Shown in pieces: positions 7,174-23,217 of a DNA stretch of 64,000 nt. Source of the stretch: an uncultured Clostridia bacterium (GTDB taxonomy: Bacteria; Bacillota; Clostridia; Oscillospirales; Ruminococcaceae); assembly GCA_944386455.1 (NCBI GenBank), contig CALXBC010000001.1:1-64000 (forward strand), written 5' to 3'. The stretch's first letter is position 1, and each line of letters begins with the position of its first letter. The position numbers and the translations under genes were made by a program. The notes under the pieces were generated by a model. It ran no database searches. It saw nothing but the letters and a program-made list of their open reading frames with translations, and was not told the origin of the DNA.

Positions 7174-9825
7174 ATGAAATGGACTGGATTAAACGAGCTG
7201 CGGGAAACATTCCTGCGCTTTTATGAATCCAAAGGGCATCTGCGTCTGCCAAGCTATCCGCTGATCCCACAGGGAGACAAAAGCCTTCTGCTGATCAATT
7301 CAGGCATGGCACCGATGAAAAAGTTCTTTCTGGGACAGGAAACGCCGCCCCGCAAACGGGTGACCACCTGCCAGAAATGCATTCGCACCCCTGATATTGA
7401 ACGGGTCGGCAAAACAGCCCGCCACGGCACTTATTTCGAGATGCTGGGCAACTTTTCGTTCGGCGACTACTTTAAGCATGAAGCAACTGCCTGGGCATGG
7501 GAGTTCATTACAAAGGTGCTGGAGCTGCCGGTTGACCGTCTGTGGGTTTCCATTTATCAGGACGATGATGAGGCCTTTGACATCTGGACCAAAGAGGTTG
7601 GCGTTGCACCGGAACGGATCGTCCGTCTGGGCAAGGAAGACAACTTTTGGGAAATCGGCTCCGGTCCCTGCGGTCCCTGCTCCGAGATTTATTTTGACCG
7701 CGGTGAAGAATATGGCTGCGGCAGACCGGACTGCGGCGTCGGATGTGAATGCGACCGGTTTGTTGAATTCTGGAATCTGGTATTTTCTCAGTATAATTCT
7801 GACGGAAACGGACACTACGAGCCAATGGAGCATCCGAACATCGACACCGGAATGGGGCTGGAACGGCTCGCCTGTATTATGCAGCAGGTGGATAACCTTT
7901 TTGAAGTGGACACTGTGCAGAATATCATGAAGCATATCAGCAAAATCGCCGGTGTTGCATATAAAAAGGACGCAAAAGCAGATGTTTCTCTGCGGGTCAT
8001 CACCGACCATATCCGCAGCACCACCTTTATGATAGCGGACGGCGTAACCCCGTCCAACGAGGGCCGCGGCTATGTTCTACGCCGTCTGCTCCGCCGCGCT
8101 GCCCGTCACGGACGCCTGCTCGGCGTGACCGATGCTTTCCTGTACCAGGTGGTCGATACGGTCGTCAAGGAGAACGAGACCGCTTATCCTGAACTTTTGC
8201 AGAAAAAAGAATTTATTAAACGTGTCATCAAAACAGAAGAGGAAAACTTCAACAACACGATCGGCAAAGGAATGGAACTGCTTAACCAGCTGATCGACAA
8301 GATTGAAGGCAGCGAGTCCGGCCATGGTCTCCTGCCCGGCGATCAGGTATTCAAGCTCTATGACACCTTTGGCTTCCCGGTCGATTTGACCAAAGAGATT
8401 CTCGCCGAGCGTAACATTGAACTGGATGAAAGCGGTTTCTCTGAGCTGATGGAGCAGCAAAAAGAACGGGCACGCGCAGCGCGTTCCAAGGTGGGCTGGT
8501 CTGATGACAACGAATATATGCTCACTGACGCGGATTTTACATTTGTAGGCTATGATACGCTGGAGGCAGAAGGCGAGGTCGTAGCGCTCGGCATCGGCGG
8601 CGAACGGGTTGAGGAAGCGTCCGAGGGAGACGAAATTGCGATTTCTCTTGACCGGACACCGTTTTACGCAGAAAGCGGCGGACAGCTCGGTGATTCGGGA
8701 ACGATGAAAAACAAATTCTGCGAAATCGAAATTTATGACTGCAAAAAAACAAATACTGGACAGTTCATCCATCTCGGAAAGGTCATCAGCGGTTCCATTG
8801 CACAAGGCCAGACCGTCACCGCCATAGTCAACCGCGAACAGCGGGAAGCGACCATGCGCAATCACACCTGTGCGCATCTGTTGCAAAAAGCGCTGCGGGA
8901 CACGCTGGGCGACCATGTTCATCAGGCCGGCCAGCAGGTGGATGCTGTCCGTCTTCGGTTTGACTTTTCTCACTTCAACGCCATGACACCCGAAGAACTG
9001 ACCAAGGTAGAACAGATTGTCAACCAGAAAATTCTTGCCGCGCTGCCTGTATCCATTGCCGAAAAAAGCATTGATGAAGCCAAGTCACTCGGTGCAATGG
9101 CCCTGTTTGGGGAAAAATACGGCGACGTCGTCCGTGTGGTGGATATCGGCGGATATTCGCTGGAGCTCTGCGGCGGAACCCATGTGGACAACACTGCCAA
9201 GATCGGCCTGTTTAAGATTATCAGCGAAGCCTCTGTCGCATCCGGCGTCCGCCGGATCGAGGCTGTGACCGGCACAGGGGTACTGGAGCTGATGAATGAG
9301 ACAAATGCTCTGCTCAACCGTCTCTCCGGCGTGTTCAAGGTTACAAACCCAACCGAGCTGATTTCCAAAGGCGAAGCAGTCCAGCATGAGCTGAAAGCCA
9401 AGGAGCAGGAGCTGAACGCACTGAACACAGAAATCGCAGAAATGCAGCTCAGACTTTTAGATGAATCTTCCATCTGGGTCAATGATGTACGAGTAGTCTC
9501 TGTTACCTTCAATGCCATCAAGCCGGACACCCTCCGCGCCATGGGCGACAAGATCAAAGAAAAAGCGCCCAGAATGGTGGCGGTTATCGCCAGCATTACG
9601 GACGGAAAGGGCACCATGCTTGCTGTCTGCGGGAAAGAGGCTGTTGCCAAGGGAGCAAACGCCGGAACCATTATCCGTGAAATTGCGGCTTTAGCCGGCG
9701 GCAAAGGAGGCGGACGGCCTGACAGCGCAATGGCCGGCATACCCGAAATTTTTAAGATTGACGAAGCACTGGCGCAGCTGCCTTCGGTCGTCCAGAAGCT
9801 CACCGAAAAAAATGTCAGGGCATGA
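7174..9825 (+). CDS. alaS: Alanyl-tRNA synthetase
   Basis: At 883 aa the protein has normal length. The class II catalytic domain is at the N-terminus (LRETFLRFYESKGHLRLPSYPLIP, motif 2 region RVTTCQKCIRTPDIE, GMGLERLA). The editing domain carries the zinc ligands HTCAH (about 565) and CGGTH (about 667). The C-terminal domain includes the glycine-rich GGKGGGRPD segment. The frame is open back to 6832, but that extension lies inside the T-box leader; the ATG at 7174 follows GGAGAGGA. Expression is set by the upstream T-box. Confidence 0.97.
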   Translation: MKWTGLNELRETFLRFYESKGHLRLPSYPLIPQGDKSLLLINSGMAPMKKFFLGQETPPRKRVTTCQKCIRTPDIERVGKTARHGTYFEMLGNFSFGDYFKHEATAWAWEFITKVLELPVDRLWVSIYQDDDEAFDIWTKEVGVAPERIVRLGKEDNFWEIGSGPCGPCSEIYFDRGEEYGCGRPDCGVGCECDRFVEFWNLVFSQYNSDGNGHYEPMEHPNIDTGMGLERLACIMQQVDNLFEVDTVQNIMKHISKIAGVAYKKDAKADVSLRVITDHIRSTTFMIADGVTPSNEGRGYVLRRLLRRAARHGRLLGVTDAFLYQVVDTVVKENETAYPELLQKKEFIKRVIKTEEENFNNTIGKGMELLNQLIDKIEGSESGHGLLPGDQVFKLYDTFGFPVDLTKEILAERNIELDESGFSELMEQQKERARAARSKVGWSDDNEYMLTDADFTFVGYDTLEAEGEVVALGIGGERVEEASEGDEIAISLDRTPFYAESGGQLGDSGTMKNKFCEIEIYDCKKTNTGQFIHLGKVISGSIAQGQTVTAIVNREQREATMRNHTCAHLLQKALRDTLGDHVHQAGQQVDAVRLRFDFSHFNAMTPEELTKVEQIVNQKILAALPVSIAEKSIDEAKSLGAMALFGEKYGDVVRVVDIGGYSLELCGGTHVDNTAKIGLFKIISEASVASGVRRIEAVTGTGVLELMNETNALLNRLSGVFKVTNPTELISKGEAVQHELKAKEQELNALNTEIAEMQLRLLDESSIWVNDVRVVSVTFNAIKPDTLRAMGDKIKEKAPRMVAVIASITDGKGTMLAVCGKEAVAKGANAGTIIREIAALAGGKGGGRPDSAMAGIPEIFKIDEALAQLPSVVQKLTEKNVRA

Positions 9826-18478: not shown

Positions 18479-18725
18479 AATGCTTTTCATGTGATAACAC
18501 ATGAAAAGCATTTGAATGTGTCGATTTTTCGACACATTCTATAAGAGGGGGCGTCCCCCTCTTATAATATCACCCCAACAAACCGCTGTAAAGCGGTTTG
18601 TCGAGGTCGCAACCGATGCACATGTCCTCGGTTGCTCCATTTAAAAGAGGATTTTCTTGAATGCTCTGCCTTTTGGGAACTTGTCTGAATGCTTTTCATG
18701 TGATAACACATGAAAAGCATTTTTT
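18479..18725 (+). repeat. Structured repeat (copy A) between duplicated terminator hairpins
   Basis: The 34-nt palindrome AATGCTTTTCATGTG... occurs at 18479-18512 and again, identical, at 18688-18721. Only the right copy has the T-run of a terminator. Between them lies a body of about 174 nt made of consecutive hairpins: GAATGTGTCGA/TCGACACATTC, ATAAGAGGGGG/CCCCCTCTTAT, ACAAACCGC/GCGGTTTGT and GCAACCGA/TCGGTTGC. The same body recurs at 20115-20290 with compensatory changes. This fills the gene-free stretch after the DUF3048 gene. I do not recognise it as a named family. Confidence 0.8.
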
Positions 18726-18780
18726 ATTGCCCGGAAATCCCGTGATGGGCCGGAGCTTATGTTTGGAGGTCTTGTTCATC

Positions 18781-19227
18781 ATGGCAAAAGCAGTCAAGTA
18801 TTTTTCAAAGGGACTGTCTCTGTTTTTAATTGGGGGAGCCGGCTATATTCTAATCGAAAATATTTGGAGAGGTTATTCCCATATCACGATGTTTTTTGCC
18901 GGCGGCCTGTCCTTTCTCTGTATCGAAATTATGGACGTCCGTCTCGGAAAAACCGTCGGAACCTTTTCCAAATGTATTTTGGGGTCAACTATTATTACAA
19001 CAATCGAATTTATTTTCGGCTGTATTTTCAATCTGTATTATAAAATGAACGTTTGGGATTATTCCCACCTGCCCTTCAATCTGTTTGGACAGATTTCTCT
19101 GTTGTTCAGCGTACTCTGGGGACTGCTGACCTATCCTGTACTGGGAGTCGGTAAAATGGTCCGAAAGCTGCTGTTCCGTGAGTCTGAAAAAAAAATACGG
19201 CCTGCATTTCGCACCTATCACTTTTAA
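18781..19227 (+). CDS. CmpB-like putative ABC-transporter-type membrane protein
   Basis: This 148-aa protein has about four hydrophobic segments (GLSLFLIGGAGYILIENI, ITMFFAGGLSFLCIEI, STIITTIEFIFGCIFNLYYK, ISLLFSVLWGLLTYPVLG) with WDYSHLPFN in the third loop, as in the PF06541 group (putative ABC transporter type IV/CmpB). The function is not known. The frame is open upstream through the repeat, but the ATG at 18781 follows a TTGGAGG site and gives the family N-terminus. Confidence 0.75.
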   Translation: MAKAVKYFSKGLSLFLIGGAGYILIENIWRGYSHITMFFAGGLSFLCIEIMDVRLGKTVGTFSKCILGSTIITTIEFIFGCIFNLYYKMNVWDYSHLPFNLFGQISLLFSVLWGLLTYPVLGVGKMVRKLLFRESEKKIRPAFRTYHF

Positions 19228-19309
19228 TCAAATCTCCTGCATAAAATTTCCTGAAACCGCATAATTTTCAATAGAGATAACTATTTCAACAGTGGAAAGA
19301 GGGAAATTT

Positions 19310-20080
19310 ATGCATACCTTTATCATATCGGGGAAAAAACTGCTGATTGCCGCTTCTTCCTGTCTGGCAGCTGTTCTGGTGGCCGTAGGCGCGGGATTGC
19401 TGATTGCGGGAAAGGCAGCTCCCACATCTGCGCAGCCAAAAAAAGTGCCGATCTATTCCGTCAAAACAGAAGAGAAAAAAATCGCACTGACCTTTGATGC
19501 GGCATGGGGCAACTCAGATACAGACCGCCTGATTGAAATCTTAAAAAAGCACAATGCCAAAGCCACCTTTTTTGCTACAGGGGAATGGGTGGACAAATAT
19601 CCGGATGATGTAAAGAGACTGGCTGCAGCCGGACATGATATCCAAAATCATTCGGATAAACATCCGCATGTAGCCAAAATCAGCGCCAAAGATGTCATCA
19701 AGGATGCCAAAAACTGTGACGACAAAATCGAGGCTTTGACCGGGAAACGTCCCACTCTTTACCGCGCACCATACGGCGAATACAGCAATGAAATGCTGGA
19801 AGCCCTGGAAAAAGAAGGCATGCAGGTCATTCAGTGGAACGTAGACAGCAGAGACTGGAAGCGCCCTTCTGTTGAAACGATGGTTTCTTCCGTTACAAAA
19901 GCGGTAACTCCCGGGAGCATCCTGCTGTTCCATAATGATGTTCCCAATACGCCCGCCGCGCTGGATGCGATTCTCACCCAACTGGATAAAAACGGATACC
20001 AGTACATGCTGGTCAGCGATTTGATATTGAAAGACAACTATACCATTGACAGCAACGGCGTACAGTCTGCCAAACCATAA
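19310..20080 (+). CDS. Polysaccharide deacetylase, PdaB-like
   Basis: This 256-aa protein has an N-terminal membrane or signal helix (LLIAASSCLAAVLVAVGAGLL) and a NodB-type deacetylase domain. Motif 1 is LTFDAAWGN (the PdaB variant of TFDDG), the metal motif is HSDKHPH, and motif 3 is YRAPYGEYS; late motifs are VDSRDW and LLFHND. PdaB-type enzymes act on peptidoglycan during sporulation, which suggests a spore-forming lineage (inference). GAAAGAGGG precedes the chosen ATG. Its terminator region carries repeat copy B. Confidence 0.88.
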   Translation: MHTFIISGKKLLIAASSCLAAVLVAVGAGLLIAGKAAPTSAQPKKVPIYSVKTEEKKIALTFDAAWGNSDTDRLIEILKKHNAKATFFATGEWVDKYPDDVKRLAAAGHDIQNHSDKHPHVAKISAKDVIKDAKNCDDKIEALTGKRPTLYRAPYGEYSNEMLEALEKEGMQVIQWNVDSRDWKRPSVETMVSSVTKAVTPGSILLFHNDVPNTPAALDAILTQLDKNGYQYMLVSDLILKDNYTIDSNGVQSAKP

Positions 20081-20086
20081 CAAAAA

Positions 20087-20324
20087 ATATCCCTTTGCAA
20101 ATGCAAAGGGATATGAGCGTGTCGAAAAAATCGACACGCTCTATAAGGGGGGCGTCCCCCTCTTATAATATCACCCCCAACAAACCGCGTTGCGACGCGG
20201 TTTGTCGAAGTCGCAACCGATGCGCATGTCCTCGGTTGCTCCATTTCAAAGGGGATTTTCTCTAAAATGTCCCCCTTTTTCGACAGACTGAAATATCCCT
20301 TTGCTTCTGTAAAGGGATATTTTA
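20087..20324. repeat. Structured repeat (copy B) between duplicated terminator hairpins
   Basis: ATATCCCTTTGC.../GCAAAGGGATAT at 20087-20114 and a near-copy with a different loop at 20293-20320 flank a body of 176 nt homologous to copy A. The left stem has an A-run before it and the right stem a T-run after it, as if one bidirectional terminator had been split. Stems differ from copy A in a paired way (GAGCGTGTCGA with TCGACACGCTC; ACAAACCGCG with CGCGGTTTGT). TGTCGAAAAA near the left end is the reverse complement of TTTTTCGACA near the right end. It lies between convergent genes. Confidence 0.8.
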
Positions 20325-20339
20325 TTGTTCTTAATCAAA

Positions 20340-21734
20340 TCAATATTCTGCTGAACCAGTGGTGCGTGGGAACGGGATTGCATCCCTGATATTGGAAATT
20401 CCCGTGATATACATGATCAGCCGTTCAAAACCAAGGCCGTATCCCGCATGCTTGGTACCGCCAAATCTGCGCAGATCAAGATACCAGGAATAATCTTCTT
20501 CCTTCAGACCCAGCTCATGGATGCGGTTGGTCAGCACATCCAGCCTTTCCTCACGCTGGCTGCCGCCAATGATTTCCCCAACGCCCGGCACCAGCAAATC
20601 CATAGCAGCAACTGTTTTTCCGTCGTCGTTCAGCCGCATATAAAATGCCTTGATTTCTTTTGGGTAGTCAATGACAAACAAGGGCTTTTGGAAAACCTGT
20701 TCTGTCAGGAAACGCTCATGCTCAGTCTGCAGATCACAGCCCCAGTATACCGGGTAGCTGAACCGGTCCTTATGCTTCTCCAAAATCTCAATTGCCTCTG
20801 TGTAAGTAACCTTTCCAAATTCTGCCTGAACAAGACCGTTAAGCCGCTCGATTAATCCTTTGTCAAAAAAGCTGTTGAAAAACTGCATATCGTCCGGACA
20901 GGTCTTCAATACATAGGAGATGACATATTTGATCATCCGCGCAGCAAGCTCCATATCATCCTGAAGATCGGCAAATGCAATCTCAGGCTCAATCATCCAG
21001 AACTCTGCGGCGTGGCGGGCCGTATTGGACTTTTCTGCACGAAATGTCGGACCAAAGGTGTAGGTTTTGCCAAAGGCCATGGTCATGCACTCTGCTTCCA
21101 ACTGGCCGGAAACCGTAAGACTGGTAGGCTTGCCAAAAAAGTCCTGGCTGTAATCAATTGTTCCGTCCTCGGCACGCGGCGGGTCGGCAGGATCAATGGT
21201 TGTGACCCGAAACATTTCTCCTGCTCCCTCGCAGTCACTTCCAGTGATAATTGGCGTGTGTGCATATATAAAGCCGTTTTCATGAAAAAACTGGTGAATC
21301 GCAAATGCCGCGGCAGAACGAACGCGAAATACTGCACTGAACGTATTTGTACGCGGTCTGAGATGCGCAATGCTGCGCAAAAACTCCAAAGAATGTTTCT
21401 TTTTTTGGAGCGGATAATCCGGCGAGGACGCCCCTTCTAAAATGACACTGTCCGCATGGATTTCGAGCGGCTGCTTCGCCTGTGGAGTCAGCAGCACGCT
21501 TCCGGTCACGATGACGGCGGAACCAACATTGTATTTTACTACATCCTTGAATTCGGCTACCTTGTTTTCTTCCAGCACCACTTGTAAATTTCGGAAACAG
21601 CTCCCGTCATTCAACTCAATAAATCCAAGCGCCTTGGAATCTCGAATCGTCTTTACCCAACCGCAGACCGTTACCGTCTGACCCGCATACTGTGCTGCAT
21701 CGGCATACAGCGCAGCAATCTCCAGTCTTTTCAC
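20340..21734 (-). CDS. asnS: Asparaginyl-tRNA synthetase
   Basis: This 464-aa class IIb synthetase has an N-terminal OB-fold anticodon domain ([25 protein letters not shown]) and a catalytic domain with [46 protein letters not shown] (motif 2) and [15 protein letters not shown] (motif 3). The start is a GTG after GGAGG; the longer frame to 21869 would read through the preceding gene's stop region and the promoter. Its promoter (21771-21799) overlaps the stop codon of the symporter gene. Confidence 0.95.
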
Positions 21735-21770
21735 TGATCGTCCCTCCAAAAATAAATTCTTTAAACATAT

Positions 21771-21799
21771 ATTATACACGAAATCCGGCAGTTTAACAA
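21771..21799 (-). promoter_or_regulatory. Promoter of asnS
   Basis: The minus strand shows TTGTTA, 17 nt and TATAAT. The -35 element shares bases with the TGT TAA end of the upstream symporter gene. Confidence 0.7.
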
Positions 21800-23217
21800 C
21801 TCTTTTCTTTTGTTTTCTTCTGTTTTTTTTCTGAGCGGCTGCCGAAATCAGCATACAGCTTGGAAACAATACCGCTCAGCGCCAGCACTCCCAATAGATT
21901 GGGGATCACCATCAGACCGTTGAACATATCCGCCATGCTCCAAACCAATTCTACCTTCAGCAGAGAACCAAGCACTATAAAACAGACTACCAGCGCCGCA
22001 TAAATTTTTACTGCCTTTTCCCCAAATAAATACCGAATATTCTGTTCTCCAAAAAAATACCAGCCAACAATGGTCGAAAAAGCAAAAAACAACAGACAGA
22101 CTGCAATGAATATCCCGCCAAAGCCTCCAAAAACCTGAGAAAACGCCGCCTGGGTGAGTTCGATTCCGTCGAGCCCGTTGTCAAACAGCCCGCTGGTGAT
22201 TATCACCAGTGCCGTCAGCGTCAGTACCACAAAAGTGTCCAGAAAGACACTGATCATTGCAATTGAACCCTGTTCACAGGGATGCTTGACTTTTGCCAAG
22301 GCATGCGCATGCGGTGTGGAGCCCATACCGGCCTCATTGGAAAAAAGTCCGCGGGCCACACCGTAACGGATAGCCTCCTTGATTCCAAACCCGACCGCAC
22401 CGCCAAGCACTGCCTGCGGCTGAAACGCTCCTCTGAATATCATCCAGAACGCACTGCCGATCCTATCCCAGTGAAACGCCAGCACTACCACGCAGCCGCC
22501 GATGTACAAAAGTGCCATAAGGGGAACGATCTTTTCCGTAAAAGCTGCGATCCGCTTTACTCCCCCCAAAAAGACAAATCCCGCAACCGCCGCCAAAACG
22601 ACACCGGTAATCAGCTTAACAAGCGTCCCGTTCTCCGGCGTTCCAAGCAGAGACTCAAATGCAGCCGAAATGGAGTTTGACTGCACCATATTACCCATAA
22701 ATCCGAGCGCGATGATAATCAGCACCGCAAAAATTCCTGCCAACACCCTGCCGAATCTGCCGCGGAACGCTGCCTGGATATAATAAACAGGTCCGCCTGT
22801 GATTTTGCCGTTCTGCTCCTTTTTGAACTTCTGTGCAAGCGTTGCCTCTGCAAAGATCGTTGCCATGCCCAAAAATGCAGAAAGCCACATCCAGAAGATT
22901 GCGCCAGGGCCGCCCATCACGATCGCCGTTGCAGCACCCGCCAAATTTCCCGTTCCAATCTGGGCTGCGACCGCCGTCGTAAAGGACTGGAAAGATGACA
23001 TCCCGCCGGCACCCGCCTTTTCCCCGTTGAAACGGCACTTTTTAAACATCTCGCAAAGGCTTTTCCAAAAGCGGGTCACCTGCACAAATTTCAGGCGGAA
23101 AGTAAAATAGATTCCTGTCCCGCAAAGCAGAATCAGCAGCAAAAAATCCCATAAAAAAGAATTGATCCAGTTTACAAAACTACCCAGATATTCTTCTAAT
23201 ATTTGTAAAACGTCCAA
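21793..23217 (-). CDS. Sodium:alanine/glycine symporter (AGCS family)
   Basis: This 474-aa protein of about 11 membrane helices carries the AGCS signature [54 protein letters not shown] and [21 protein letters not shown]. It imports alanine or glycine with sodium. The first codon is TTG (LEU-type start) after GGAGAG; no ATG fits. It lies just upstream of asnS but asnS has its own promoter. Confidence 0.93.

Follow-up and report, generated by a model that had tools for sequence, protein, structure and literature searches.

Within the 64,000-nucleotide stretch of DNA that was analysed (the window), two related bodies at 18514-18687 and 20115-20290 are each flanked by a pair of palindromic stems whose sequence is specific to the locus. 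This arrangement raises the question of what the bodies are, and how each came to be bracketed by a stem of its own. The window is located on contig C1 of a 2.14 Mb host genome (59 contigs, 97.8% complete) whose relatives are Clostridia of the Oscillospirales kind. The first-pass annotation had described two similar bodies with a series of hairpins, flanked by pairs of locus-specific stems; all of these were present, and its coordinates proved to be essentially exact. The parts of the two loci are listed below by position in the window.

18479-18513, no strand: locus 1, target terminator stem-loop, left-hand copy (35 bp); identical to 18688-18722, with a single stem at the orthologous site in genome G001
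18514-18687, plus strand: element copy 1, 174 bp, gene-less; its ends are delimited by the duplication
18514-18539, plus strand: element 1, left-end palindrome GAATGTGTCG..CGACACATTC with the left inverted-repeat end; compensatory change relative to copy 2
18540-18566, plus strand: element 1, second hairpin TATAAGAGGGGG/CCCCCTCTTATA; four pairs with both-side changes across copies
18578-18601, plus strand: element 1, ACAAACCGC hairpin; one pair is U-A, A-U or C-G across copies
18609-18635, plus strand: element 1, GCAACCGA hairpin with loop core GCACATGTC; core recurs in elements of other genera
18688-18722, no strand: locus 1, target terminator stem-loop, right-hand copy, then a T-run; 35 bp, identical to the left copy
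20085-20114, no strand: locus 2, target terminator stem-loop, left-hand copy, with an A-run before it; 26/30 identical to 20291-20320
20115-20290, plus strand: element copy 2, 176 bp, with convergent genes on either side
20115-20141, plus strand: element 2, left-end palindrome GAGCGTGTCGAAAAAATCGACACGCTC; of the type with 26 exact genome occurrences (reversed control 0)
20142-20167, plus strand: element 2, second hairpin; covariation across copies
20180-20205, plus strand: element 2, ACAAACCGCG hairpin; covariation across copies
20213-20239, plus strand: element 2, GCAACCGA hairpin with loop core GCGCATGTC; core recurs in elements of other genera
20275-20290, minus strand: element 2, right inverted-repeat end, reading CAGTCTGTCGAAAAAG inwards; the same sequence forms the left end of L171, an autonomous IS1182 element
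20291-20320, no strand: locus 2, target terminator stem-loop, right-hand copy, then a T-run; 30 bp, 26/30 identical to the left copy

Mismatches between the locus 2 stem copies are confined to the loop and upper stem, and the A-run (left) and T-run (right) do lie on opposite sides of the element, as had been remarked. The convergent neighbors of element 2 are a deacetylase-like ORF (19292-20080) and a minus-strand ORF (20340-21869). Element 1 has a degenerate right end, with TTTTGGGAACTTGTCTG in place of CTTTTTCGACAGACTG. Pattern scans for canonical ends found no further copies in the window.

The doubling of the stems was characterized in 49 curated insertions, comprising 45 candidate non-autonomous transposable elements (MITEs) and 4 autonomous elements, which were accepted on the basis of a visible duplication with no palindrome required. 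The flanking copies were 20-36 bp long (median 26), and left and right copies were identical in 32 of the 49. Duplications were palindromic (stem score >=6) in 48/49 insertions versus 1.4% of shuffled sequences; the target was thus a hairpin or palindrome in 48 of 49, and the hairpin was found on both sides of the element, not deleted. Asymmetric loops recur in the same orientation on both sides (e.g. ACGCGGCAGATGATTTCTGCCGCGT), which identifies the copies as direct target duplications. In a set of 39 duplications trimmed by eye at the element ends, 25 run exactly from one foot of the stem to the other, so that their terminal bases are paired, the outermost pair lies within 2 bases of each duplication end in all 39, and 29 duplications start with A while 34 end with T. 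Since the end bases pair at the base of the stem, the cuts appear to fall at both of its feet. There are exceptions: the element at C6:25546 sits inside a loop with a duplication of only 6 bp, one on C39 is flanked by a non-palindromic, AT-rich repeat of ~10 bp, and several copies have lost one side of the duplication. At C17 ~8881-9090 (L043), the flanking loops are mutually reverse-complementary (AATGAA vs TTCATT), as if one of the palindromes had flipped after insertion.

A site without the element was found for locus 1. In G001, a genome of the same genus, a single contig carries both genes that surround locus 1 in conserved order (68-70% identity), and the space between them holds a single stem-loop terminator that contains GAATGCTT of the window stem. 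This is an empty site with one terminator, not two. It is the only clean empty site obtained; for locus 2, L071 and L072, no clean empty site was found in G001, where gene order or terminator sequence had changed. The proposal that a mobile, structured element duplicates terminator hairpins is borne out by dozens of locus-specific, whole-stem duplications, by this empty site and by the matching transposase family described below. Most of the other copies do carry a duplicated stem, so both observations that the first-pass annotation had named as able to overturn the insertion model came out in its favor.

Searches of the host genome gathered ~34 places with an element, i.e. ~32 outside the window, as a non-exhaustive count. 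The body sequence of the window elements matches ~10 places, and the left palindrome GAGCGTGTCGA-N-TCGACACGCTC has 26 exact occurrences, compared with 0 for a reversed control pattern; among 147 further genomes of the family, only 3 contain it. Most of the additional host palindromes mark a second body type (TCGAGGGACAAACACAATC...) or longer variants, with ends common to all, and G001 has ~10 window-type and >20 second-type matches. In a scan of one genome per species (84,980 species), 50 palindrome stretches were found. A small element (200-520 bp) flanked by a long duplication accompanies 21 of them, all from Clostridia (Acetanaerobacterium, Angelakisella, Candidatus Gemmiger, Candidatus Metaruminococcus and further Clostridia). 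Palindrome matches in Proteobacteria, Actinobacteria, archaea and other phyla had no long duplication beside them and were dismissed as chance. Viral contigs, plasmids and phages yielded no copies with the pattern and queries used. The gene-less elements are mostly 175-340 bp long and have no ORFs, and the longest open stretches in related elements are mostly <110 codons.

Several host copies deviate from this plan. Those at C39:1751, C43:6960 and C31:23920 (L041, L047 and L049) carry an extra ~120 nt inside the ACAAACCGC hairpin that forms hairpins of its own (CAAAAGCGTT..AACGCTTTTG and GGCCG..CGGCC), and stretches related to it occur in other host copies, e.g. at C13:52482 and on C27. At C1:128622 (L067), two elements stand in tandem with a terminator copy between them, the first without a left palindrome. 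A solitary left palindrome with no visible body at C37:2254 (L211) is perhaps a deletion remnant.

The element ends point to a transposase family. The terminal inverted repeats of the MITEs are GAGCGTGTCGAAAAA at the left and CAGTCTGTCGAAAAAG at the right, read inwards. The right end of element 2 equals the left end of the IS1182 element L171 at 16/16 nt, while the MITE left end matches an IS1182 element end at only 12/15 positions. In related genomes, IS1182-family transposases scoring above the NCBIfam cut-off lie inside elements that start with CAGTCTGTCGAAAAAG or CAGCCTGTCGAAAAAGG, which match the MITE right end fully or almost fully. The ends of the IS1182 elements in Oscillospirales read CAG(T/C)CTGTC(G/A)AAAAA (L168, L170, L171, L174 and the Acetanaerobacterium IS), and their transposase gene has ~470-500 codons. 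Target duplications are of the same kind for these autonomous elements as for the MITEs, namely whole palindromes: 31 bp at L171, 21 bp at L168, 29 bp at L170 and 39 bp at L174, and contig ends of a multicopy IS1182 element of Acetanaerobacterium pair by duplications of 24 and ~20 bp. The first-pass annotation had advised looking for a transposase or reverse transcriptase that co-occurs with the element; an IS1182 family with the same ends and duplication does exist in related genomes, but the 59-contig host assembly (G000) gave no match to an IS1182 or DUF772 transposase. G001 has no convincing IS1182 transposase either. The autonomous partner is often missing for old MITEs.

Two IS1182 elements, L173 (G231) and L176 (G031), have a palindrome abutting each end, but not the same one on both sides, as expected if IS copies had recombined with each other. 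A DUF772 transposase of Acetanaerobacterium (the L075 group) looks unrelated on account of its differing left palindrome, but its flanks show that it belongs to an IS1182 element that uses its targets in the same way. In Angelakisella massiliensis (G164), an IS5-type transposase gene occurs in tandem pairs ~1.39 kb apart at C6:680724, 1792416 and 2836658.

Based on these comparisons, we consider both bodies to be copies of a non-autonomous transposable element of the IS1182 kind that duplicates its target stem and would be moved in trans, and give this reading a probability of roughly 0.85. The simplest and most likely account of the window elements is that of IS1182-type MITEs, in view of their lack of ORFs, the CAGTCTGTCGAAAAAG end, and the occurrence of the same end with whole-palindrome duplication in autonomous IS1182 elements. 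An IS1182 transposase supplied in trans would bind the element ends and join the 3' ends of the element at the feet of a hairpin or palindrome, one to each strand. Gap repair would then copy the stretch between the cuts onto both sides. This stretch is the whole stem-loop, so that the target hairpin would set the length of the duplication. As a terminator is left on each side, the neighboring genes probably keep one, and terminator hairpins are probably a tolerated niche for insertion.

Could the bodies instead be immobile structured RNA genes or cis-regulators that are bracketed by tandem terminators through chance and were spread by ordinary duplication? Their folding is certainly strong (z of -11.3 and -13.4 against shuffles for the two window regions). 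In 11 window-type copies from two genomes, 10 of 47 predicted consensus pairs show changes on both sides, and GAAT..ATTC versus GAGC..GCTC in the left hairpin, singled out earlier as a paired compensatory change, is a true double compensation. The hairpin near the right end retains the loop core GCRCATGTC (variants GCACCTGTC and GCGCTTGTC) while its stems differ entirely between genera; it is found at 18609-18635 and 20213-20239, as well as in L120, L121, L124, L128, L137, L140 and L152, and one form of the motif, the only form looked for in the full-length IS elements, occurs once in each of three of them. However, the flanking stem is particular to each copy and is duplicated together with its loop, the empty site holds one terminator, the ends match an IS family of the same habit, and Rfam gave no match at gathering scores for the window and six other loci, with sub-threshold scores far below gathering. 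We therefore regard immobile RNA as very unlikely; the locus-specific duplications and the empty site refute it as a full account, although a functional RNA within a mobile element is possible. A different objection concerns only the functional reading of the body and leaves mobility untouched: the hairpins and compensatory changes may have arisen mostly by palindrome correction during replication (template switching) and not by structural selection. Near-perfect palindromes are prone to such correction, and the reverse-complementary flanking loops on C17 fit it. Correction could account for part of the compensatory changes, but by itself it does not explain the conserved loop, whose core stays while the stems change between genera, and we hold it to be a real though minority prospect as their main source.

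Two further alternatives accept mobility and differ from the IS1182-type MITE reading in the means of movement. Copying through RNA, which the first-pass annotation had left open, would make the bodies relatives of group IIC introns or other reverse-transcribed elements that home beside terminators. Group IIC introns do insert next to terminator hairpins, which is their likeness to the window elements, but they produce no long target duplication, whereas the window elements have inverted-repeat ends and no intron core: the window and six other loci gave no Rfam match to the group II intron RNA core or any other family. Given the long direct duplication, the absence of ORFs, and ends that are the inverted repeats of a DDE-transposase family, spread through RNA can be virtually discounted. 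The other alternative is that the MITEs are mobile but have another mover, such as the IS5-type element L076 of G001 (C37:2-991), whose right end CAGACTGTGGAAAG resembles the MITE end at 12/14 positions. Its stop codon lies within that end, and the resemblance is probably coincidence. Relatives of this element have other ends, on which ground it was rejected as the mover, and no palindrome duplication was seen at them, whereas IS1182 ends match at 16/16 positions and come with whole-palindrome duplications; a mover of this type is accordingly improbable.

Relatives of the proposed partner are known to choose similar targets. IS1272 and TnSha1, of the IS1182 family, insert at hairpins, many of which are transcription terminators, with no primary sequence consensus, and they delete or replace the hairpin with no target duplication (PMC4923244, PMC5678879). 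Hairpin duplication was drawn by Wan et al. only as a hypothetical pathway (b) for IS1272 (Fig 13, PMC5678879). The window-type elements share with these the transposase family of the proposed partner and the preference for hairpins or terminators, but the whole hairpin is duplicated and not lost. They share the end sequence and whole-palindrome duplications (20-39 bp) with the IS1182 elements of Oscillospirales, which carry a transposase gene where the window elements have none and a structured body of their own instead. Bacterial MITEs such as the pneumococcal RUP, BOX and SPRITE have been reviewed with no mention of IS1182 (PMC10969869). Like bacterial MITEs in general, the window elements are short, gene-less, intergenic and structured, with inverted-repeat ends and a predicted dependence on a transposase in trans; they differ in taking the size of the duplication from the target hairpin. 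No description of IS1182-derived MITEs was found in the literature searched, the coverage of which did not extend to some important IS reviews. The choice of palindromes and terminators by IS1182 relatives is thus already known, and gene-less satellites that combine structured bodies with stem-sized target duplications appear to be new.

In most DDE transposons the target duplication has a fixed length. For IS1182, variable duplication lengths are reportedly listed in ISfinder and, if so, the novelty of the duplication itself is lower. We tentatively suggest, as a combined proposal that we would not yet favor, that the IS1182-type transposase of Oscillospirales reads the shape of its target with structure-templated duplication, and that the GCRCATGTC hairpin of the MITEs is a working signal, e.g. 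for the transposase or a host factor. Structure-directed target choice can be tested directly here, since the length of the duplication (20-39 bp) varies with that of the target hairpin, and dozens of natural insertions display a pathway that had been only hypothetical for IS1272. Doubled terminators offer a simple signature for finding more such elements, and the terminator that remains on each side of a copy suggests how a gene-less satellite may spread with little harm.
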